Notes under the pieces: generated by a model | What the model saw: only the letters and a program-made list of their open reading frames with translations | Told to the model about the DNA's origin: nothing | Database searches by the model: none | Source of the DNA: a virus | DNA: 26,602 nt | Direction: 5' to 3' (one strand) | Virus record (IMG/VR): IMGVR_UViG_3300037325_000262 | Location: 1 to 26,602 of that record | Shown here: one piece after another, positions 567 through 26,078 of the stretch | How positions within the stretch are numbered: the stretch's first letter is position 1 | Layout of the letters: the number at the start of each line of letters is the position of its first letter | Translations under genes and position numbers: made by a program

Positions 567-1670
567 ATGGCAAGTATAACAAGTACACCCGCAACGCTTC
601 AAGGTTGCTACAAGGCGTTAATTTACACTTACACACATACTATTACATCTAATGCAAATGTAATGAGTATCGAAGTAGAAATTTATGTAAATGCCGTTTT
701 GGTAGCTACTAAATTTATAAACGCTTTTAAAAGTGTGAGCGAGTCGGGCGGTGATTATACTTACACTTATGATATAGATATATCTAAAACCGTGCAAGAT
801 TTTTTCGATAATAAAGCCGTTTTTTATCCACAAATTGCGAGCTACCCAAAAACTTCTGAAGATTTTTTGGCTAAAAATACAGCTATCAAAATATTTAGAT
901 ACGAGCCGAACTCGTCGGGTATTTTAACGAAAAACGGCACAAGTACGGATTCAGCAACACGAACATATTTTAATAGTCTTATCAATTCAATGTCAGATTA
1001 TACAGCCGTTACAGGTCGTAAATTCTTATCAAGTGAACCGAACGAGGTTTATTATTTGAATACTATTAAAACGTTGGCAGTTTATAGCGATAACCGCTCA
1101 ACACATTTGAGATGGAAAAAAGACGGGGTAGCACAAACATATTTCGCCTTAACTCAAAATCAAATTAACATCATAAATTTGTCAGATTATACAGCCGTTG
1201 CAGGTGAAAAACTCGCTTTTGAAGTTGGTATTGTTAATTCCGAAAGGCCTAGTTCTTTTGAGCTAAATAGTGAACTAAAAAGCTACCTTGTAAAAGATTT
1301 ATATTGCAATTCAATTACGCTACATTATCAAAATGAATTTGGGCAAATGGATAGTTTTGTATTTAGTAGATTTACAAAGCAAGTCGCAAGGGAAAACGAA
1401 TTTTTCACAAACTCAAATTATGCTAATACTATATTGAATCAAGAAGTGCGATACAATTACACTTTGATACAGGACGGTTTTAATATAGTACGTTGGAATT
1501 GGTTTAATAACTTCATTAATAGCACCGTTTTTTATATCGAGATTGACAGCGTATTTAAAGAAGTAACGATAAGCAATTTAACGAATTTTGAAACGATTAG
1601 CGAGGACGGAAATATAGACATATCAATTATATTGACTGAAAGTTTAGAAACTGACAGTTTTACGAATTAA
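567..1670 (+). CDS. Probable phage virion protein (tail or fibre type), 367 aa
   Basis: This is a 367-residue acidic protein rich in Ser, Thr, Asn, Tyr and Phe, with short alternating hydrophobic stretches, as expected of an all-beta virion protein. It has no signal peptide, membrane segment or nucleotide-binding motif. The motif SDYTAV(T/A)G occurs twice, near residues 142 and 205; at DNA level 20 bases are identical (991-1010 and 1180-1199), which suggests duplication of a beta-domain. It is the last gene before a strong terminator at 1711, consistent with the end of a late or structural operon that begins left of the window. Assignment as tail, baseplate or receptor-binding protein is inference from composition and position; no family was recognised. 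Confidence 0.45.
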   Translation: MASITSTPATLQGCYKALIYTYTHTITSNANVMSIEVEIYVNAVLVATKFINAFKSVSESGGDYTYTYDIDISKTVQDFFDNKAVFYPQIASYPKTSEDFLAKNTAIKIFRYEPNSSGILTKNGTSTDSATRTYFNSLINSMSDYTAVTGRKFLSSEPNEVYYLNTIKTLAVYSDNRSTHLRWKKDGVAQTYFALTQNQINIINLSDYTAVAGEKLAFEVGIVNSERPSSFELNSELKSYLVKDLYCNSITLHYQNEFGQMDSFVFSRFTKQVARENEFFTNSNYANTILNQEVRYNYTLIQDGFNIVRWNWFNNFINSTVFYIEIDSVFKEVTISNLTNFETISEDGNIDISIILTESLETDSFTN

Positions 1671-3697: not shown

Positions 3698-3720
3698 ATT
3701 AATTTACAAAATATCGTAAA

Positions 3721-3756
3721 TATATTTGGTAATATGGAAAAGTCGTTGTAAATTGC
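3721..3756 (+). promoter_or_regulatory. Bacteroidetes-type promoter for the annealing-protein unit
   Basis: TATATTTG (3721-3728), a 20 nt spacer, then TAAATTGC (3749-3756), a variant of TAnnTTTG. The region from -7 into the transcript (TGTAAATTGCATCATAATTA and beyond) is identical to that of the promoter at 25743, which supports it as a functional unit. Confidence 0.7.
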
Positions 3757-3805
3757 ATCATAATTAAAAAGCAATATTTAACTAACAATCAAAATTTAAA
3801 ATAAA

Positions 3806-6509: not shown

Positions 6510-7472
6510 ATGAATAGAGATTTTAAAGGTGTTTGGATACCTAAAAATATTTGGATAGATGTAGAATTATCATGGATGGAAAAGTTGTTTATTGTGGAAA
6601 TTGATTCGTTAGATAATGAAAATCATTGTTTTGCATCCAATAGTTATTTTGCGGAATTTTTCCAATTATCAAAACCTCGATGCACTCAAATTATTAAATC
6701 TTTAGAGGCGAAAGGCTTTTTATCTATAAAATTAGAATGGAAAGGTAAGGCAGTTACAAAGCGTACAATTACAGTCAATAAAGCGAAATATAATGGTAGT
6801 AAAAATATTAAAGAGGGTGGTAAGAAAACTAAACAGGGTAGTAAGGATTCTAAACAGGGGGTGGTAAGAAAACTAAATGATAGTAATACAGAAAGTAATA
6901 ATACAATTAATAATTTTTTAAACAACGAAAAAAAAGAAGCTCTAAAAACTGAAATTTACGTAAAGCAAGAATCTACATTTACGGACAACGGCAACTTAAA
7001 AACGAATAGTGACGAAAACAACTACATTGACTTTACAGACGAAAAGGTGAATTTTGGATATTTAGGAAAATGTAAAGGCTTATTCCAAACGTATTTAAAC
7101 CTATTAACATTTTCTGAATATGAAGACAAAATCATAAAAGGCATATTCTATTCGATTAAAGACAATCTAACGGCTTACAATAAGAAACAAGGTATAGATA
7201 CACCAATACAAGATAAAAACGTCTTAGATGCCTTAAAAATAGCTTTACAAGCCTTTACAATTAAACCTTTACCGTCGGGCAAAATGAATTTGGTATATTT
7301 TAGAGGTTCGTTAAATGCAAATGTCTATATTAAAATCGACGATACGGCTAAATTATTGGATTTGGTAGGTTCGGAGCAAAGAGCAAATTATTATAATATT
7401 GCGGCTCGAGACGGTGCAAGCATAGCGACTGAAAAATTAAGAAATTTATTGACTAAACAAGGTAAAATTTAA
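6510..7472 (+). CDS. Winged-helix phage replication protein
   Basis: This 320-residue protein begins with the pattern common in phage replication initiators of the DnaD/O type: GVWIPKNIWIDVELSWMEKL (7-26), a middle helix-turn-helix region (NSYFAEFFQLSKPRCTQIIK, 44-63) and a beta wing ending KRTITVN. A Lys/Asn/Ser-rich linker (about 95-160) joins it to a C-terminal domain (about 170-320) of unknown fold. The family role is recognition of origin DNA and helicase loading; here this is inferred from the N-terminus. The gene follows the structured leader at 6327-6490. The last 42 nt of the gene are repeated after the methyltransferase gene. Confidence 0.65.
   Translation: MNRDFKGVWIPKNIWIDVELSWMEKLFIVEIDSLDNENHCFASNSYFAEFFQLSKPRCTQIIKSLEAKGFLSIKLEWKGKAVTKRTITVNKAKYNGSKNIKEGGKKTKQGSKDSKQGVVRKLNDSNTESNNTINNFLNNEKKEALKTEIYVKQESTFTDNGNLKTNSDENNYIDFTDEKVNFGYLGKCKGLFQTYLNLLTFSEYEDKIIKGIFYSIKDNLTAYNKKQGIDTPIQDKNVLDALKIALQAFTIKPLPSGKMNLVYFRGSLNANVYIKIDDTAKLLDLVGSEQRANYYNIAARDGASIATEKLRNLLTKQGKI
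7431..7472 (+). repeat. Direct repeat, left copy (42 bp)
   Basis: The last 42 nt of the winged-helix gene, encoding EKLRNLLTKQGKI and the stop, recur at 8106-8147 with only two mismatches. The two copies flank the methyltransferase gene. Confidence 0.9.
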
Positions 7473-7476
7473 GGCA

Positions 7477-8070
7477 ATGGAAATATTAAATTTATATAGT
7501 GGTATTGGAGGCAATAGAGAATTATGGGGAAATAATCATAATATAACGGCGGTTGAAATAGATGAAAAACGAGCTTTAAAATATCAATTATTATTTCCTA
7601 ATGATATTGTAATTGTTGCGAACGCTCACGAATATTTACTTGACAACTATAAGAAATTCGATTTTATTTGGACTTCGCCGCCGTGCCAAACTCACAGCCG
7701 TGCAAACCACTTTATTAATAATGGAGTAGCAAAAAGACCGCGTTATCCAAATATGGAACTTTATCAAGAAATTATATTTTTAAGTAAGTTTTTTAAAGGG
7801 CTTTATTGTGTTGAAAATGTCATAAGTTATTACGAACCTTTAGTAAAGCCGTTAAAAATGGGGCGGCATTATATTTGGTCAAATTTTAAAATAAATAAAA
7901 TTGAATTGCCAAAAGCTGAAATCGGCTCAATGAAAAAAGGTTGGAATACTGCGAGTAAAACACATATTGACGAACGCAATAAATGCAACCCAATTTTAGG
8001 TGAACATATTTTAAATTGCAGTCAAGGCATATTTAAAGAACGTTCTGCAAAAGTTGGTTTTTTGTTTTAA
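7477..8070 (+). CDS. Compact C5-cytosine DNA methyltransferase
   Basis: This 197-residue enzyme transfers methyl groups from S-adenosylmethionine to cytosine C5 in DNA. Motif I is LNLYSGIGGN (4-13), motif II is VEID (26-29), motif IV with the catalytic cysteine is TSPPCQTHS (66-74, Cys70), motif VI is CVENV (111-115), and GRHYIWSNF (129-137) lies in the place of motif VIII. The canonical QxRxR and the C-terminal motif X are not evident, and the protein is about half the length of typical restriction-linked enzymes, so the target-recognition part is minimal. No restriction nuclease is adjacent. It begins 4 nt after the winged-helix gene and is bracketed by the 42-bp direct repeats, suggesting insertion as a cassette. 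Confidence 0.88.
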   Translation: MEILNLYSGIGGNRELWGNNHNITAVEIDEKRALKYQLLFPNDIVIVANAHEYLLDNYKKFDFIWTSPPCQTHSRANHFINNGVAKRPRYPNMELYQEIIFLSKFFKGLYCVENVISYYEPLVKPLKMGRHYIWSNFKINKIELPKAEIGSMKKGWNTASKTHIDERNKCNPILGEHILNCSQGIFKERSAKVGFLF

Positions 8071-12387: not shown

Positions 12388-12416
12388 CTAAACTTTATTT
12401 TATAATATATCGTAAA

Positions 12417-12452
12417 TATATTTGTTTTATCAATTAATGTTTTGTAGTTTTG
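12417..12452 (+). promoter_or_regulatory. Bacteroidetes-type promoter for the primase unit
   Basis: TATATTTG (12417-12424), a 20 nt spacer, then TAGTTTTG (12445-12452), a full match to TAnnTTTG. It drives the SSB-like and primase genes. Confidence 0.82.
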
Positions 12453-12485
12453 TGGTAGAAATTAATCAAAAACTATTTATTAACT

Positions 12486-14917: not shown

Positions 14918-15095
14918 AATAGGCGACAAAATCGAAAAATTTATAATCGGTGGTTATGAATATGACGAATGTATAATTGAATTTGATGACGTTTTATATG
15001 CTTACGTAGGAGTAGATAAAGAAACAGGTTCACGGGGTTTGTTATACCAACATTTAGACAGTTTAAAATATCAAAATGATAAAAATAGACATTAA
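14910..15095 (+). CDS. Small protein, 61 aa
   Basis: The product starts MIKIGDKIEKFIIGGYEYDE and continues as a strand-rich stretch (CIIEFDDVLYAYVGVDKETG), as in small SH3-like beta barrels. It overlaps neighbours by 8 and 20 nt. No family was recognised. Confidence 0.5.
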   Translation: MIKIGDKIEKFIIGGYEYDECIIEFDDVLYAYVGVDKETGSRGLLYQHLDSLKYQNDKNRH

Positions 15096-15705
15096 ACAGA
15101 ACGGAGTTAGTAATATAATAAAGTTTCCTTATTCGGCAACCGAAATTCTTTATAAAGACTTTTGCGATTATAGAATTTGGTTTGAAATCCAACCTCTTTG
15201 GTTTAAAAATTCGGATTGGCACGAAAAAGAAGCGGACTACGCTTTAAAGATTATTGAAGGTATTAGGCTATTGACTAAAGTAGATTTATCCTACTTAGAT
15301 TTGACAAACATATTGGTTGACGGTATGGCAATAAAACTTGATAGTTTGCTACATTCTATTTTAATCAATTGCAGAGCCGCAAATGACGCAAGTAGCATAA
15401 TCGAGTATAAAGGCGATTGGTATCAGCTTGACGATACAAAAACGGTACATTTAGGAATTATGGCAATGTATGTAGAAAACAAGTACAAAGTTACGCACGA
15501 AGGTGACGTAAACGACTATAATAAAACGCTTTATCATACTGCTATTTTTGCAAGAAAACGACTTATAGGACGTAAGGAAACGCTGCCAAAAGACCGTCAA
15601 AGTTGCGAGGCATTAATTGAAACAAGAGTAAAACACTTTCAAGATATTACCTTACAGGACGCCATGACTATACGTTTTTTTTTTCGATATGGTTCGGCGA
15701 AATAA
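15076..15705 (+). CDS. Protein of 209 aa, probably extended by -1 frameshift
   Basis: In the zero frame this gives 209 residues ending MTIRFFFRYGSAK. The codons TTT TTT TTT lie in a run of ten T (15675-15684), and the zero frame stops seven codons later. In the -1 frame the sequence stays open to a TAA at 15927-15929, giving a product of about 284 residues. The main part is aromatic and helical (YRIWFEIQPLWFKNSDWHEK; DLTNILVDGMAIKLDSLLHS), without catalytic motifs I can name. Frameshifted pairs are typical of tail assembly chaperones, but no tape-measure gene is nearby, so that role is doubtful. A homopolymer indel in the genome or its assembly is the alternative. Confidence 0.6.
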   Translation: MIKIDIKQNGVSNIIKFPYSATEILYKDFCDYRIWFEIQPLWFKNSDWHEKEADYALKIIEGIRLLTKVDLSYLDLTNILVDGMAIKLDSLLHSILINCRAANDASSIIEYKGDWYQLDDTKTVHLGIMAMYVENKYKVTHEGDVNDYNKTLYHTAIFARKRLIGRKETLPKDRQSCEALIETRVKHFQDITLQDAMTIRFFFRYGSAK

Positions 15706-15929
15706 ATAGTCATAAATTTTACAGACGGGTTTTTAAATCAATACACACGCCGCCACAAGTTGACGACAAAACGAGATTAAGAAACGACCGCTATTTAAAC
15801 GAATTTAGCAATTTTGTGTGGCTGAAAATCTTGATAGATGGTAACGTGTTCGGGAACTTACAACAGACGCTAAACGGTAACTTTTACGATGCGTTATTTT
15901 ATTTATCAATGTATTATAATCAACCGTAA
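15684..15929 (+). other. -1 frame extension after the T10 slippery run
   Basis: Reading shifts from the 15076 frame to -1 at 15675-15684. The extension runs 81 codons, beginning SIWFGEINSHKFYRRVFKSI and ending YDALFYLSMYYNQP. It has no internal ATG until four residues before its last part, so it is unlikely to be an independent gene. Its aromatic, Lys/Asn-rich composition matches the upstream part. Confidence 0.6.
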
Positions 15930-15930
15930 A

Positions 15931-15962
15931 ATTGCAAACGTCACATATAAATAGTATATTTG
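15931..15962 (+). promoter_or_regulatory. Bacteroidetes-type promoter for the packaging unit
   Basis: ATTG (15931-15934), a 20 nt spacer, then TATATTTG (15955-15962), a full -7 match. It begins 2 nt after the stop of the frameshift extension and precedes the terminase operon. Confidence 0.72.
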
Positions 15963-15985
15963 CATTCAATCAAAACATTATCAAA

Positions 15986-16065: not shown

Positions 16066-16602
16066 ATGACTGCAAATACAGAAGAGTACCCCTTAAAACG
16101 GATTTATAGCATTAACGAGGGTAAAGCGTACTTAAATTTAAACGATTGCGTACGTAGCTATTATAGAGATTTTACAAATAATGTAGATTCAAAAGTAATA
16201 CACAAGACAATTGTAAGAATGCGAGCCGCTGTAAAACAAAAACTTTACTATTTTGAAGACCAAAAAAGCGGTTTAAGTTTGTCAATTGCAAATGGTAACG
16301 AAAAGGTTACAGATGTAGAAAAAAACTACCTACCTTCAAGGATGCGAGGGTACAAAATAAACGGTGGTAAAATAGAAAAAAGTCTTAAAACTGCAATTGA
16401 ATCATCTTTACAAGGTAGGGAAACGGACGAATCAAAAAAGGCTTATTGGCGAGTGTACGGAAATTTGATTTTAAAGAAAAAATATGATTATTTTGATGAA
16501 ATCACACAATTAGAAGTAAATGTCTTTAATTTGGAAAGCTACGAAAAGCGATACAATTTAAAAAACAACGTACATGATAATAACAGATACAAGAGTAATT
16601 GA
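16066..16602 (+). CDS. Hypothetical protein upstream of the large terminase, 178 aa
   Basis: This 178-residue basic protein overlaps the large terminase gene by 29 nt and occupies the place where a small terminase often lies. It contains YSINEGKAYLNLNDCVRSYY, a Lys/Arg-rich middle (HKTIVRMRAAVKQKLYYFED) and a charged, helical end (YEKRYNLKNNVHDNNRYKSN). No helix-turn-helix pattern is obvious, and a better small-terminase candidate is present at 20162. It could be a packaging accessory or DNA-binding protein; no family was recognised. Confidence 0.55.
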   Translation: MTANTEEYPLKRIYSINEGKAYLNLNDCVRSYYRDFTNNVDSKVIHKTIVRMRAAVKQKLYYFEDQKSGLSLSIANGNEKVTDVEKNYLPSRMRGYKINGGKIEKSLKTAIESSLQGRETDESKKAYWRVYGNLILKKKYDYFDEITQLEVNVFNLESYEKRYNLKNNVHDNNRYKSN

Positions 16603-17767
16603 AAGAACAACCGCGGGATTAAAAAGAGGGGCTGCCTACATAATACATCAAGGCGGCACCTCGTCGGGCAAAACTTACGGTAACTGTTACGCTATAATTT
16701 CGCACCTGCTTTACGAAAAGAAAAAAGAAAAATTAACGGTATCAATAGTATCAATAAATTTTCCACATTTGCGTAAAGGAGCAATGCGAGATTTTGAAAA
16801 TATAATTTTAGATTGTGGGCTTAGTCACTTAATAGAACATAATAAATCTAACCATACTTTTAAATTTCCAAACGGTTCCGTAGTGGAATTTTTCAGTGTT
16901 GACAGCTACGAAAAGGCGTTAGGTTTACGGCGTGACATTTTATTTATAAATGAGTGCAATTCAATAGCTTATGACGTATTTTTTCAACTATCAATAAGAA
17001 CACGGAAAACGATAATTTTAGATTACAATCCTACTTCAAAATTTTGGTTTCAAGAGAAGTTACTGCCTACTTTAAAAAATTCCGATTACATCTACACCCG
17101 AACGACTTATAGAGATAATAAAGCACTTTCGGACGTAATTAGAAAGCGTATTGAATCAATACAAGACGACTATCTTAGACAAGTTTATGTTGAAGGTAGA
17201 ACGGGCAAGATAGAGGGGCTTATATTCACAAAATATACTATTGTAGATGAGTTTCCAACCGATGCAAAGCAGGTCGGTTACGGGCTTGACTTTGGATTTA
17301 GTATCGACCCGACCGCTTTAGTAAAATGCGGCGTTTTAGATGGTTGTTTATACATAGAGGAGCTAATATATGAAAAGGGCTTATTAAATAGAGATTTGGC
17401 AAAAAAAATGAAGGAACATGGCATAAGTCAAAGCACGAACATATGGTGTGACAATCAACCGAACACCGTTTTTGAGCTTAAAAAAGTGTTTTTTTATAAT
17501 GCTAAAATTGTAAAAAAAGGTGCGGATAGTATATTGGCAGGGCTTGACACCATGAAACAATTTAAAATTTGTATTGTAAAAGGCTCAAATAACATCATAA
17601 AAGAGTTTGAAAATTACAAGTGGGAAACAAGGCGAGGCGAACCAACGGGCAAGCCTATTGACGACCATAATCACGGAATTGACGGGACGCGCTACTTCGC
17701 AAAAGGGAACTTAATGCGTAACAGGTCAAACAAAGATAGAACAGGGCAAACATCATTCACTTTATAA
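16574..17767 (+). CDS. terL: Phage terminase large subunit
   Basis: This 397-residue packaging motor has an N-terminal ATPase and a C-terminal RNase H-like nuclease. The Walker A is GGTSSGKT (27-34), Walker B is LFINE (123-127) followed by CNSIAYDVFFQL, and IILDYNPTSKFWF (147-159) is the typical PBSX/phage segment after it. The nuclease part shows YGLDFGFSIDPTALV (236-250; Asp239), CDNQP (292-296; Asp293) and PIDDHNHGIDGTRYF (361-375; Asp363/364). It pumps DNA into the prohead and cuts concatemers. The start MIITDTRVIERTTAGLKRGA overlaps the preceding gene by 29 nt. A fragment of another terminase follows. Confidence 0.95.
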   Translation: MIITDTRVIERTTAGLKRGAAYIIHQGGTSSGKTYGNCYAIISHLLYEKKKEKLTVSIVSINFPHLRKGAMRDFENIILDCGLSHLIEHNKSNHTFKFPNGSVVEFFSVDSYEKALGLRRDILFINECNSIAYDVFFQLSIRTRKTIILDYNPTSKFWFQEKLLPTLKNSDYIYTRTTYRDNKALSDVIRKRIESIQDDYLRQVYVEGRTGKIEGLIFTKYTIVDEFPTDAKQVGYGLDFGFSIDPTALVKCGVLDGCLYIEELIYEKGLLNRDLAKKMKEHGISQSTNIWCDNQPNTVFELKKVFFYNAKIVKKGADSILAGLDTMKQFKICIVKGSNNIIKEFENYKWETRRGEPTGKPIDDHNHGIDGTRYFAKGNLMRNRSNKDRTGQTSFTL

Positions 17768-17978: not shown

Positions 17979-18683
17979 ATGAAATTAAAAGACCTTAAAA
18001 CGAATGCAAAAAACCCTCGAATTTTAAAAGATGCGAGGTTTAAAAAATTGCTTAACAAAGTACTATGTTATCCAAATTTATTATCTAAAAATAAATTGAC
18101 TTACGATAGCAGCGATGCAAATACCGTATTAGGCGGCAATCAACGCCTTGCGACACTTAATTATATAATCAAGTCTATCAGTACTAAACAGTTAGAAGAC
18201 AGCGTTAAAGCCGCACAAAAAGCGTTAGGACTTGAAAACGAATTACTGTTAAATAATTCAATAGCAATATTTACAGAAATTAAAGAAACGAAATCAATAC
18301 CGTCCGACTGGGTGCAAGATGTACAAGGATTAAGCGAAGACGAAAAACAAGCGTTTATCCTTATAGATAATTTGAACGACGGCGAATGGGACTTAGACGA
18401 AATAGCGAACAAGTGGGATATTGATACAGGTGAATGGGGCTTAGTAAGTTGGAACGATTTTAATACAGATGACGAAGTAGATTATTCAATTTTAGACGGC
18501 GAAGATGACTTATCGGAAAGTGTAAGCGATATGTCAAACAGCGTAAAAAAAGCAATACAAATTGAATTTGATTTAGAACACTATGAAGCCGCTTATGAAG
18601 TTATAAAGTTTTGGCGAGGTGAAGGAGCGAACATAGGTAAAATGATTTTAGATTATTTGGAAAGTGAAAAGGATAAATTATGA
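17979..18683 (+). CDS. ParB-like domain protein
   Basis: This 234-residue protein has the ParB/sulfiredoxin-type fold pattern found in many Bacteroidetes phages: LKDLKTNAKNPRILKDARFK (3-22), YPNLL, then VLGGNQRLATL (50-60), which corresponds to the ParB GERR nucleotide-binding box. Downstream are IPSDWVQDVQGLSEDEKQAF and the repeated DNLNDGEWDLDEIANKWD and GEWGLVSWN motifs typical of this phage subgroup, followed by an acidic stretch and a helical C-terminus. Such genes often sit beside DNA methyltransferases and terminases, and the family has been linked to DNA modification and binding. It overlaps the FkbM-like gene by ATGA. The enzymatic activity, if any, is unknown. Confidence 0.78.
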   Translation: MKLKDLKTNAKNPRILKDARFKKLLNKVLCYPNLLSKNKLTYDSSDANTVLGGNQRLATLNYIIKSISTKQLEDSVKAAQKALGLENELLLNNSIAIFTEIKETKSIPSDWVQDVQGLSEDEKQAFILIDNLNDGEWDLDEIANKWDIDTGEWGLVSWNDFNTDDEVDYSILDGEDDLSESVSDMSNSVKKAIQIEFDLEHYEAAYEVIKFWRGEGANIGKMILDYLESEKDKL

Positions 18684-19372
18684 AGACAAAAACCATAAAA
18701 GGAATAAAGTTTTTTTATAGAGATAGCACAAGCGACCTCAAAACTTTTGAAGAGGTTATAGGTAAAGACGTTTACCAAAAAAAAGGCATGAAGATATTAG
18801 CTGGTGAAACGTGGATTGATTGCGGCGGCAACGTTGGAGCTTTTACATTATTAGCGTGTAGTTTGGGTGCAAATGTTATCGTTTATGAACCCGACCCATA
18901 CAATTGCGAAATGATTAAAAAGAATCTAAAATTAAACGGCTTTACAGCAAAGATAAGGCAGGTTGCTTTGGTTCACGATAATACAAAAAAAGCTAATTTG
19001 TATATAGGTAATAACGGCAACGTATGGAGAAATTCACTGTTTAAAAATTGGAACGGAAAAGGCTTAAAGGTAGATTGTGTAAACTTTGATGACGAAATTA
19101 AAGATGGTGTTTGCATCAAAATAGATATCGAAGGAGCGGAAATGCTTATCCTAGAATCTACTAATAGAAAGTTTAAAAAAATGGTTTTTGAATGGAGTTT
19201 TGATATTGATTATTCATTAGAAAGGTTTTGGAATATCATTGAAAAACTTCAAAAAATATACAACGTTAAAGATGTTGGCAATACTGCCAAATTCAAAACA
19301 AGGGATTACAACGTATGGCAAAAGTCGTGGTTTCCTGCCTGCACAAATGTATTTTGTTATGAAAAGAATTGA
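18680..19372 (+). CDS. FkbM-type SAM-dependent methyltransferase
   Basis: In this 230-residue protein, motif I is WIDCGGNVGAFTL (45-57), motif II is VYEPDPYNCEMIKKN (68-82), and the late motif is IKIDIEGAEMLIL (146-158), the hallmark of FkbM methyltransferases. Members methylate hydroxyl groups of sugars and other small groups; here the acceptor is unknown. It overlaps both neighbours (ATGA with the ParB-like gene and 14 nt with the putative oxygenase gene), so the three are co-translated. That makes a shared target, such as an oxidised base in phage DNA, a reasonable hypothesis. No DNA-recognition domain is visible. Confidence 0.82.
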   Translation: MKTKTIKGIKFFYRDSTSDLKTFEEVIGKDVYQKKGMKILAGETWIDCGGNVGAFTLLACSLGANVIVYEPDPYNCEMIKKNLKLNGFTAKIRQVALVHDNTKKANLYIGNNGNVWRNSLFKNWNGKGLKVDCVNFDDEIKDGVCIKIDIEGAEMLILESTNRKFKKMVFEWSFDIDYSLERFWNIIEKLQKIYNVKDVGNTAKFKTRDYNVWQKSWFPACTNVFCYEKN

Positions 19373-20150
19373 TTTAATAAAATTGGAACACAGCACAAAA
19401 ATAGGTCAACCTTGCGACTCTATTAAACCAAACGTTACAGAAGATTGTATCTTTTATGTCGATGGCGTTGCAATAGGTTTTTATTTGCGTGTGATGCCTT
19501 TAAAAATGCAAAAGTTAGCAAACTTAGCAGATAAAGAGTTAAGAAGTAAGAACGTGCCAAAGGCTACTATGAATAGGAGGACAGGAGTGGGCAAAGATGA
19601 AAAAGGAAAATATATATATATAAACGAAGTTGCTCAGTATTCCGCTATTTTAGGAGCTATTGCACCGAAACCACATATGAGGCGAAATTACCCAAACTTA
19701 TCAAGTGTTCACTTAGTTAAGACCGCACAAACTTTTATTAAATCTATGCTATTATTAGCAAATGAAGCCGAACAATTGATAAAAGAAATACTTCCCGAAC
19801 AACACGCAAAACAAAAAAAGTTGTTTGAACAGGTAAACGATAAATGGAAATTTGGAAACCTTTGGACAAGCTCAATATCAAATTATAATATTGCAGCACC
19901 TTATCGCCGCGACACACAAAATATTGTTGGAGCGGTTAATGTAATTATCACGAAAAGAAAGAACGCCGTAGGTGGCAATCTAAACGTTCCCGACTATGCA
20001 GCGACTATTGATAGTTGTGATAATTCGATACTTGTTTATCCTGCGTGGCAAAATGTACATGGAGTGACGCCGATAATTCCAACAGCGAAAGGCGGCTACC
20101 GAAATAGTTTAATATTCTATCCTTTGAAAGCGTTTATAGGCTTAGATTAA
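19359..20150 (+). CDS. Putative TET/JBP-like 2-oxoglutarate dioxygenase
   Basis: The ATG at 19359 (MKRIDLIKLEHSTK) was chosen over an in-frame ATG at 19239 because the extra 40 residues lie inside the FkbM-like gene. The 263-residue protein has a C-terminal pattern like phage TET/JBP oxygenases: YRRDTQN (182-188), VNVIITKRKNAVGGNL (193-208), PDY, NSILVYPAW (222-230), VHGVTPI (233-239) and GGYRNSLIFYPLKAF (245-259). His234 and Arg248 fit the distal iron ligand and the 2-oxoglutarate anchor. The expected HxD is R183-R184-D185, so the first iron ligand seems replaced. If active it could oxidise 5-methylcytosine made by the phage methyltransferase. Family assignment is from remembered motifs and is tentative. 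Confidence 0.5.
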   Translation: MKRIDLIKLEHSTKIGQPCDSIKPNVTEDCIFYVDGVAIGFYLRVMPLKMQKLANLADKELRSKNVPKATMNRRTGVGKDEKGKYIYINEVAQYSAILGAIAPKPHMRRNYPNLSSVHLVKTAQTFIKSMLLLANEAEQLIKEILPEQHAKQKKLFEQVNDKWKFGNLWTSSISNYNIAAPYRRDTQNIVGAVNVIITKRKNAVGGNLNVPDYAATIDSCDNSILVYPAWQNVHGVTPIIPTAKGGYRNSLIFYPLKAFIGLD

Positions 20151-20161
20151 ACAATATAATA

Positions 20162-20527
20162 ATGACAAATAGAGACACTAATAAAAAAGCATTGATTGAA
20201 GCCCTTGAAAAAACGATGGGAATCGTTACAAGGGCTTGTCAATTGGTTGACATATCTCGAAATACATTTTACAGATATTACAATGATGACGAGGCATTCA
20301 AAGCTAAGGTTGACGATATCGAAAACATCGCTTTAGACTTTGCTGAATCAAAACTTCATAAAATGATAGGCGATGAAAACACCGCCGCTGTGATATTCTA
20401 CTTAAAGACCAAAGGCAAAAAACGAGGGTACATTGAACGTAACGAAGTAACGGGTGCGGAAGGTTCACAAATTAATTTTGTCGTTGCCTTGCCCTCGAAA
20501 GATATAACATCAGACGAAATTGATTAA
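20162..20527 (+). CDS. terS: Probable small terminase subunit (helix-turn-helix)
   Basis: This 121-residue protein has a helix-turn-helix (MGIVTRACQLVDISRNTFYR, 19-38), then a long helix (DIENIALDFAESKLHKMIGD) and NTAAVIFYLKTKGKKRGYIE (73-92). This is the pattern of small DNA-binding proteins annotated as terminase small subunits in Bacteroidetes phages. Its role would be recognition of the packaging site and presentation of DNA to the large subunit. It lies downstream of, not upstream of, the large subunit gene, separated by the modification-type genes. A transcription regulator with the same fold is the alternative. Confidence 0.6.
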   Translation: MTNRDTNKKALIEALEKTMGIVTRACQLVDISRNTFYRYYNDDEAFKAKVDDIENIALDFAESKLHKMIGDENTAAVIFYLKTKGKKRGYIERNEVTGAEGSQINFVVALPSKDITSDEID

Positions 20528-21850: not shown

Positions 21851-21917
21851 ATATAACAACGTAGTAATAGCAACAATAATATAATTATCTTTTATTTATT
21901 TAATCAAATATTGATAA

Positions 21918-21953
21918 TATATTTGGTGGTTCGGATAATGTTTTGTAGATTTG
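21918..21953 (+). promoter_or_regulatory. Bacteroidetes-type promoter for the gene at 22003
   Basis: TATATTTG (21918-21925), a 20 nt spacer, then TAGATTTG (21946-21953), a full match. The sequence TGTAGATTTGTATATCATTA around the -7 box is identical at the promoter starting 25391. Confidence 0.83.
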
Positions 21954-22002
21954 TATATCATTAAAAAATAAAGTATTATTTAACTATCAAAACATTATCA
22001 AA

Positions 22003-22620: not shown

Positions 22621-22657
22621 AAAAGCGGCTTACCTTCATAGGTGAGCCGCTTTTTTT
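22621..22657. terminator. Bidirectional terminator between convergent genes
   Basis: AAAAGCGGCTTACC (22621-22634) pairs with GGTGAGCCGCTTTT (22641-22654), 14 pairs with one wobble and a six-base loop, with T following on the plus strand and A-rich sequence preceding it. It serves the plus gene ending at 22606 and also lies just after the stop of the minus gene. The left arm is the same as in the terminator at 24727. Confidence 0.88.
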
Positions 22658-23189
22658 ATTTGATAACAGCACCCCTATTTAAAATGTCAATAAGTAAAGT
22701 TTGAATGAATGCAATATCTTTAGCAGAAAAAAATTGATTCGCAAAGTTTCTGTTCGCTTTTAAAGTGAATGATTGAAAATTTCTACGCCGTCCGTTTTTG
22801 CTGAACTTTACAGAGCCTTTAGTAGGCATACCTTGTTTTTTGTGCATCTTTGCGATTGCAAACGCCGCCGATAACGGCTTTAGCATACCCTTACGAGCAG
22901 CCCAATTTTTTAACGCTTCAATGTATAATGATGTAGCTTTTTTACTTGCACCGCCGCCAAACGGTATCTTGTTTGACGATACACCTTTTTCTAAAAATAT
23001 ACCATATTTCAAATACGAAAATACGATTTCAATAGTATCTACATTAGTCAATATATCGTATTCAATAGACTTCTCAAATTTACCCGTATCTCGGTGTCCT
23101 TGACCTACAAATTCGTCTGTCAATTCCTTTTTGAAAAATTCAGCAACTTGCACCGCTTTTTTATCTAATAATAACGTTTTTATGTCCAT
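22656..23189 (-). CDS. Putative HK97-gp10-like tail completion protein
   Basis: The start at 23189 (MDIKTLLLDKKAVQVAEFFK) is preferred to an ATG 69 nt upstream, whose added residues overlap the predicted promoter. The 177-residue protein contains GHRDTGKFEKSIEYDI (31-46), SYLKYGIFLEKGVSS (58-72) and IPFGGGASKKATSLYIEALK (75-94), resembling the TG...SI and YxxxLExG segments of the HK97 gp10 family that closes tails or joins head and tail. A basic C-terminal part (KFSKNGRRRNFQSF) follows. It is alone on the minus strand with its own promoter and terminator, which is unusual for a tail gene. The family call is tentative. Confidence 0.45.
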   Translation of the reverse strand: MDIKTLLLDKKAVQVAEFFKKELTDEFVGQGHRDTGKFEKSIEYDILTNVDTIEIVFSYLKYGIFLEKGVSSNKIPFGGGASKKATSLYIEALKNWAARKGMLKPLSAAFAIAKMHKKQGMPTKGSVKFSKNGRRRNFQSFTLKANRNFANQFFSAKDIAFIQTLLIDILNRGAVIK

Positions 23190-23203
23190 ATTAAAGTTTT
23201 TTA

Positions 23204-23235
23204 TAAAATTACGAAATTTATTTTTAATGTACAAT
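23204..23235 (-). promoter_or_regulatory. Minus-strand promoter of the gp10-like gene
   Basis: Read on the minus strand: ATTG, 20 nt, TAATTTTA. The surrounding sequence (ACATTAAAAATAAATT(T)CGTAATTTTA) is shared almost exactly with the region before the minus-strand gene at 24763-25287. Confidence 0.55.
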
Positions 23236-23293
23236 GTAGTGATAGCAATACTTTTCATAATATCGTTAAATTATAGTTACCAAATATTCAAAA

Positions 23294-23329
23294 TATATTT
23301 GTTCGTTTCAATAGTTTGTGTTACCTTTA
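23294..23329 (+). promoter_or_regulatory. Bacteroidetes-type promoter for the gene at 23387
   Basis: TATATTTG (23294-23301), a 20 nt spacer, then TACCTTTA (23322-23329). It diverges from the minus-strand promoter at 23204-23235. Confidence 0.68.
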
Positions 23330-25331: not shown

Positions 25332-25390
25332 CGTACTATTTGCAATGATTTGTAAAATAGATTAATGTTTATATTATCAAATATCAATAA

Positions 25391-25426
25391 TATATTTGTT
25401 CGTTTGGTTTATTAGTTGTAGATTTG
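25391..25426 (+). promoter_or_regulatory. Bacteroidetes-type promoter for the gene at 25476
   Basis: TATATTTG (25391-25398), a 20 nt spacer, then TAGATTTG (25419-25426), a full match. The sequence around the -7 box matches the promoter at 21918. Confidence 0.83.
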
Positions 25427-25475
25427 TATATCATTAAAAAGAAAGGCATTTATTTAATAGTTTAAATTTCGCATC

Positions 25476-25715
25476 ATGACAAATTCTGAAAAGTTTACAG
25501 CCGCTCACAAATTAGCAAAAACTTATGAAGGCAATTATAGAGCTTGTTTTGCTTTAGCCTTGAAAGCCGTAAATGAAATGATTAAAGAGTCAGAATTTGA
25601 TTTAGAATATAAAACTGAATTTTATAATTACCAAGTTTCAATTTTTGGAGCTACTTCATTAATTAATGAAATTGTAAGATTAAACAATACACCTGCAATG
25701 ATTTTAAACTATTAA
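25476..25715 (+). CDS. Small protein with duplicated N-terminal module, 79 aa
   Basis: Residues 1-30 (MTNSEKFTAAHKLAKTYEGN, then YRACFALALK) are the same as in the gene at 25830 except Glu/Gln at position 5. The AHxxAKxxxGxYRxxFxxALK pattern occurs in small phage proteins of unknown function. The remaining part (EMIKESEFDLEYKTEFYNYQ; TSLINEIVRLNN) is unique and helical. It has its own promoter at 25391. Confidence 0.6.
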   Translation: MTNSEKFTAAHKLAKTYEGNYRACFALALKAVNEMIKESEFDLEYKTEFYNYQVSIFGATSLINEIVRLNNTPAMILNY

Positions 25716-25742
25716 AATTAATTAATTTACAAATATTAAAAA

Positions 25743-25778
25743 TATATTTGGTAATTCAAATAATTAGTTGTAAATTGC
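25743..25778 (+). promoter_or_regulatory. Bacteroidetes-type promoter for the gene at 25830
   Basis: TATATTTG (25743-25750), a 20 nt spacer, then TAAATTGC (25771-25778). From the -7 box on, it is nearly identical to the promoter at 3721. Confidence 0.7.
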
Positions 25779-25829
25779 ATCATAATTAAAAAGCACAAAT
25801 TATCTAACTAATACAAAATTTAAAATACC

Positions 25830-26078
25830 ATGACAAATTCACAAAAATTTACAGCAGCGCACAAATTAGCGAAAACATACGAAGGTAATTACAGAGCTTG
25901 TTTTGCATTAGCTTTAAAAGTTTTGAATGGGACTTTAGAAATTGAAATGAAAAACACAACTATAATCAGAAAAGCCTTTTTCACAAATGACCAAACCCAA
26001 TTTGGCATTAGGTTCACTTATGAAGGAAGTGACATAGTACATACTGACCACGAAGAAGGTGTTGTTTTAGAATTTTAA
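25830..26078 (+). CDS. Small protein with duplicated N-terminal module, 82 aa
   Basis: It shares the first 30 residues with the gene at 25476 (29 of 30 identical), while the DNA differs at many third codon positions. The C-terminal part is different: beta-rich and aromatic (IIRKAFFTNDQTQFGIRFTY, then EGSDIVHTDHEEGVVLEF). Such module swapping is typical of phage accessory proteins. It has its own promoter at 25743. Confidence 0.6.
   Translation: MTNSQKFTAAHKLAKTYEGNYRACFALALKVLNGTLEIEMKNTTIIRKAFFTNDQTQFGIRFTYEGSDIVHTDHEEGVVLEF

Follow-up and report, generated by a model that had tools for sequence, protein, structure and literature searches.

Introduction

Phage tail assembly chaperones that are produced in two forms through a -1 frameshift are a classic case of recoding (reviewed in PMC5009743). 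A different route to two frames is slippage on homopolymers, and for a large proportion of bacterial genomes, nine is the length at which selection against slippage-prone runs of A or T is evident (PMC1088944). The stretch of DNA analyzed in this study, hereafter referred to as the window, is a virus record from IMG/VR with a length of 26,602 bases. It is a metagenome-type consensus, probably a fragment, in which a run of ten T joins two overlapping frames. The comparisons presented below indicate that a Bacteroidota siphophage very probably carries at this locus a gene resembling those for tail assembly chaperones, from which programmed -1 recoding at the T-run would yield two proteins at a set ratio.

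The two-frame gene in the window

The positions of the gene and of other features in the window are listed in Table 1. As stated in the original prediction, the 209-aa frame passes through the T10 run and ends soon after it. Six codons precede a TAA (...CGT TTT TTT TTT CGA TAT GGT TCG GCG AAA TAA), and two in-phase T TTT TTT heptamers within the run fit a -1 slip. The -1 frame gives 81 codons past the last shared Phe, resulting in a fusion of 284 aa. It was also said to have no usable early start, which agrees with the ORF list, where no ORF of at least 60 aa with an ATG, GTG, or TTG start was found in this frame.

When the 209-aa, 84-aa, and 284-aa products were each used as a single query against phages, IMG/VR, GTDB contigs, and 395 Bacteroidota genomes, no homologue was identified. 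A match to the Pfam family Baseplate_wedge (E of 0.002-0.008, below the cut-off) and a match to Turandot were taken as chance. A weak likeness to a podovirus head-tail connector (H81 with an E of 0.7, and L005 with an E of 9e-4 in a small ORF set) covered residues 2-94 only and was set aside. Scanning the window for Rfam families and tRNAs gave no hits.

Table 1. Positions of the recoded gene and of other features in the window
Feature	Position	Strand	Remarks
0-frame ORF, 209 aa (predicted short product)	15076..15705	+	N-terminal and middle domains, putatively chaperone-like (family alignment and model)
-1 frame	15621..15929	+	Open 15621-15926, stop TAA 15927-15929; predicted C-terminal extension of the fusion
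T10 run (putative slippage site)	15675..15684	+	Encodes FFF; from sequence and family junctions
T TTT TTT heptamers	15675-15681, 15678-15684		In phase for a -1 slip
0-frame tail past the run	15685..15705	+	Six codons (RYGSAK) and a stop
178-aa ORF	16066..16602	+	Between the recoded gene and TerL
Terminase large subunit (TerL)	16574..17767	+	Pfam Terminase_3/3C; phage relatives
Small-terminase-like gene	20162..20527	+	E of 4e-39 to L148; homologue upstream of TerL in family loci
gp10-like head-tail/tail gene	22656..23258	-	E of 1e-9 to L057; iterated family of 71
Tail-module gene	567..1670	+	Homologous to one in L167, L168, and L055
Possible hypermodification set	17979-20150		Consecutive genes: ParB-like, FkbM methyltransferase, and Tet/JBP-like oxygenase
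Short C5-cytosine methylase gene	7477-8070		Possible part of the hypermodification set
53-nt direct repeat	7431-7483, 8106-8158		Copies 89% identical
Intergenic repeat AAATATnnnnAATATATTTG	1744-1829, 3698-3789, 12394-12485, 21895-21986, 23274-23319, 25368-25459, 25723-25808		
Tandem small ORFs	25476-25715, 25830-26078		First 30 residues common (MTNS[EQ]KFTAAHKLAKTYEGNYRACFALALK)

A TerL-linked gene family with a T-run junction

A search with the TerL of the window led to the locus L002, where a 0-frame ORF comes after TerL and a T7 marks its junction with another ORF in the -1 frame, and a TerL profile added 160 further loci. An iterated HMM was seeded by the L002 fusion and trained without the window, and the T-run was no part of detection. 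With this HMM, a two-ORF gene was found downstream of TerL in most of the viral loci and in several genome loci. Both ORFs were present in 62 TerL-linked phage loci, mostly of Bacteroidota; the register between them was -1 in all 62, and the junction of every one carried a run of T7 to T11 in the phase right for a -1 slip. T9 was the dominant length (54 loci), followed by T10 (four), T7 (three), and T11 (one), while T8 was absent. The T9 runs occurred in all three codon phases, which also held among the 34 clusters formed at less than 50% identity, where T9 was in 30, T10 in three, and T7 in one. Past the run, the +1 frame closes at a median of two codons and the -1 frame stays open for a median of 86. 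The protein context of the junction in the family is xxD(V/A)xxGAxVFF|LxFRxRIxxxYxxLF.

Long T-runs were confined to this site. Across 563 kb of coding sequence from the window and the 62 loci (63 in total), every sense-strand run of at least nine T was at the junction; elsewhere in this sequence, there were 47 occurrences of T7, nine of T8, and none of T9. The family also includes the isolated Nonlabens phages P12024L and P12024S, in which the T9 and the -1 extension are present. In their records, the 0-frame gene and, separately, a short ORF at the region's end are each annotated as hypothetical. The family gene is covered by the PHROG phrog_32199, which has no function assigned.

The programmed slippage with products of 209 and 284 aa that had been suggested for the window is thus supported by the same -1/T-run junction in dozens of diverged phages. 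The question of whether homologues keep both frames and the T-run received a mixed answer, and the refuting case named in the original prediction was partly encountered: all 62 two-ORF loci keep them with T7 to T11, but about ten other loci, mostly of Flavobacterium type (L024, L027, L029, L030, L031, L035, L040, L042, L043, and L051), encode a single shorter continuous ORF, with the parts of the family profile in one frame and no run of at least seven T.

Two further loci were noted. In a Capnocytophaga locus (L047), a separate T7/-1 two-frame gene is located at 15282-15985, far downstream of TerL; its similarity to the family is weak (E of 5e-4 in a two-sequence test), and it is perhaps a classic tail chaperone. 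The match of G001 to L169 (E of 0.03) was regarded as noise, as L169 contains three stops and no fitting T-run.

Relation of the window gene to the family

The window gene shares the register of the family, with a -1 shift between its ORFs and an in-phase run of at least seven T at the junction. The chance occurrence of such a layout was assessed on both strands of about 84 loci without a detected family member, where it was defined as at least seven T in phase with at least 100 codons upstream and at least 45 codons in the -1 frame. It was found in the window and in only two others, one of which (L077) is a true member, a rarity that makes the window junction more than chance.

The fused product matched the family profile in a single test with an E of 6e-5 (62 members) or 1.2e-5 (65 members). 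The alignment begins before the junction and crosses it in register, and with the 65-member profile it reaches the C-terminal part. The score depended on the frame of continuation, at 10.7 bits for -1, 5.9 bits for 0, and 4.5 bits for +1. When the sequence was shuffled with FFF held in place, one to seven of 20,000 shuffles reached the score of the window. Decoys made by fusing real phage ORFs with FFF in place, from a set without family fragments, reached it in five to 40 of 20,000 cases depending on the profile and measure, which corresponds to a P of about 3e-4 to 2e-3 for the similarity of the window to the family. This similarity was no longer significant when the three Phe were masked; hence, the assignment leans on the junction.

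At the junction itself, the D-A-M-x-I-x-FFF|S of the window aligns exactly at the position of the family junction. A motif derived from the window, D-A-M-x-[MITV]-x-T9, was searched across IMG/VR and matched two contigs, L167 and L168, both of which are family members (E of 1e-50 or better). Their junctions read VSVQDAMDVCFFF|S and LSIQDAMNICFFF|S, compared with ITLQDAMTIRFFF|S in the window, and the search pattern specified neither the Q nor the S nor the preceding residues. A relaxed motif matched four more IMG/VR sequences, in none of which the run is flanked by long frames on each side; they were dismissed as chance. Membership of the window gene in the TerL-linked T-run family is supported by its sequence at the junction.

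Gene order

The recoded gene of the window ends about 0.65 kb upstream of TerL and has primase-side genes and TerL as its neighbors, while the genes of the family lie downstream of TerL. A place directly downstream of TerL is typical of the family without defining it, and in L077 another gene already stands between TerL and the recoded gene. The original prediction regarded the surroundings as an unusual place for a tail chaperone. The comparison did not support this, as the chaperone-like gene normally adjoins TerL in Bacteroidota phages; the one unusual trait of place in the window is a position upstream of TerL instead of downstream.

Other morphogenesis genes of the family loci were also found in the window. 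One is its gp10-like gene, whose homologue in family loci sits on the downstream side of the chaperone-like gene. The sharing of the small terminase, gp10-like, and tail genes indicates that the window derives from the same broad group of phages, with its genes in a rearranged order. Additionally, the small-terminase-like gene is about 2.4 kb downstream of TerL in the window, with modification genes between them, and just upstream of TerL in relatives such as L148.

Predicted function

An AlphaFold2 model of one 0-frame protein of the family had a pLDDT of 86.6, and a Foldseek search of this model against solved structures returned nothing significant. In a second look at solved structures, the best match was the HK97 tail assembly chaperone (2ob9_B, Z of 3.9, rmsd of 3.9), spanning 68 residues of the N-terminal domain (residues 1-74), where the Z of 3.9 is low for a helical domain, is less than one above the next rows, and possibly reflects a common helical arrangement. 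The matched protein is nevertheless of the type that would be expected. In addition, Phage_TAC_7 was matched in family members with an E of 0.016, and a BFVD model named tail assembly chaperone matched the family protein with a probability of 0.94. The model of the window's 209-aa protein (pLDDT of 71) shows its elements in a similar order and matched the same BFVD proteins as the family model, an agreement that is compatible but not independent because the model was built with family rows. No match to the HK97 chaperone was listed for the window model in the second look at solved structures. Together with the two-product layout and the place of the gene in the morphogenesis module of relatives, these hints of fold provide weak but concordant evidence, from which we infer that the family gene may encode a tail assembly chaperone similar to lambda G/GT.

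Alternative explanations and proposed mechanism

The T10 could be an error of assembly or sequencing, with a true T8 or T11 and one continuous ORF of 284 aa. Errors are common in long homopolymers, the sequence of the window is a consensus of metagenome type, and single-frame relatives exist; yet the same two-frame layout with T9 to T11 recurs in dozens of independent contigs and in two isolated phages, so that neither a sequencing error nor a decaying pseudogene is an adequate explanation. The single-frame relatives are shortened and their genes lack the T-run, which suggests that they represent a different solution rather than corrected versions. An error at this site is accordingly considered very improbable. 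Nearly as improbable is a functionally unrelated gene that carries a true frameshift mutation or a phase-variable tract and whose likeness to the T9 family would be coincidental. The absence of significant similarity outside the junction region fits such a coincidence, as do the location on the other side of TerL and the lack of the gene in L007, the locus with the most similar TerL. However, the -1 frame and the residues around the run align at exactly the family junction, and among the IMG/VR matches with long open frames, the motif from the window picks out family members only.

A programmed -1 recoding of a chaperone-like gene remains the preferred reading, and the agent of the slip is a question within it rather than a competing explanation. 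Most transcripts would give the 209-aa form, and slippage on the run would give the 284-aa form in the minority, either because RNA polymerase adds one U to produce U11 or because the ribosome steps back one base on U UUU UUU. By analogy with lambda G/GT, the common part would then interact with the tape measure, and recruitment of the tail-tube protein would fall to the extension. A ribosomal slip through tandem Phe-tRNA, with the extra T's incidental or strengthening, is a reading of the same gene and function that we consider possible but somewhat less likely than not. It is in line with the in-phase T TTT TTT heptamer of every junction, with the three loci that have just T7 in the required phase, and with the -1 mechanism documented for lambda tail genes (PMC5009743). 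If the heptamer alone were selected, though, T7 and T8 should dominate, while 33 of the 34 clusters had T9 or longer and none had T8. Ribosomal stimulators were also missing: the mean z for RNA structure downstream of family junctions was -0.44, compared with -0.15 to 0.16 at control offsets, and an upstream SD-like element occurred in one of 34 clusters, with no excess over the 9% in controls.

Slippage of RNA polymerase is modestly favored over that of the ribosome, since relatives hold nine T in any codon phase where a ribosome would need only seven in one phase, and since neither type of stimulator was seen. Nine nucleotides is about the length of the RNA-DNA hybrid, and the Bacteroidota hosts make little use of SD pairing. 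A homopolymer of at least nine that is kept by selection, a feature of programmed transcriptional slippage (9A/9T), was found in the family. As a broader and tentative proposal, whose probability we place a little short of even, the Bacteroidota siphophages as a group may set the ratio of the two chaperone forms by RNA polymerase slippage on T9 and not by ribosomal frameshifting. If so, the classic G/GT switch would have been shifted in these phages from the translational to the transcriptional level.

Other features of the window

The FkbM methyltransferase and the Tet/JBP-like oxygenase of the possible DNA hypermodification set are 51% and 47% identical, respectively, to an adjacent pair in the Prochlorococcus phages MED4-117 and MED4-184/P-HS2, which are phages of another phylum. 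The C5-methylase gene is flanked by the direct repeat, as if the gene had been inserted between the two copies or the repeat had been duplicated around it. Several copies of the intergenic AAATATnnnnAATATATTTG element are followed by a Bacteroidetes-type promoter (TTTG-N17-21-TAnnTTTG; eight matches in the window with 2.2 expected), and the combination looks like a shared operator plus promoter. The tandem small ORFs are 83% identical over 101 nt and then diverge.

Comparison with known systems

The closest counterparts of the window gene are the TerL-adjacent genes of Bacteroidota phages (phrog_32199; gp40/gp41 of P12024L and gp38/gp39 of P12024S), which share with it the -1 T-run junction and its protein context, a -1 extension of about 80 residues, and phage module genes. 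In contrast to these genes, the window gene is upstream of TerL with the 178-aa ORF in between, has T10 instead of T9, and encodes an N-terminal part that is longer than, and barely similar to, theirs. While two-frame -1 tail chaperones are known, a TerL-adjacent T9 version in Bacteroidota phages appears to be new, as we found no account of this family in the openly accessible papers that were searched. In the P12024L and P12024S records, the gene is divided into two entries annotated as hypothetical, and its PHROG has no function assigned; its recognition would fill in a recoded, chaperone-like gene that is relevant to a large group of phages. The run held at nine in three codon phases also offers a direct case of transcriptional versus ribosomal recoding in the same kind of gene.

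The likeness to lambda G/GT consists of a short and a -1-extended product with a common N-terminus and a slippery heptamer, here predicted from sequence; no sequence similarity between lambda G/GT and the window or family gene was found. The lambda genes have a short heptamer, whereas the window and the family have a T9 to T10 run, are not beside the tape measure, and are perhaps recoded during transcription. Because the window gene is not located between the major tail protein and the tape measure, the position of G/GT, it is described as probably working like G/GT and is not filed as a member. Similarly, in the 9A/9T transcriptional slippage of Thermus dnaX and IS elements (PMC1088944), a homopolymer of about nine makes two frames, as it would in the window. 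Unlike those cases, the gene described here is a phage morphogenesis gene in which the slippage is predicted, and the run length of nine has been kept across many diverged phages.
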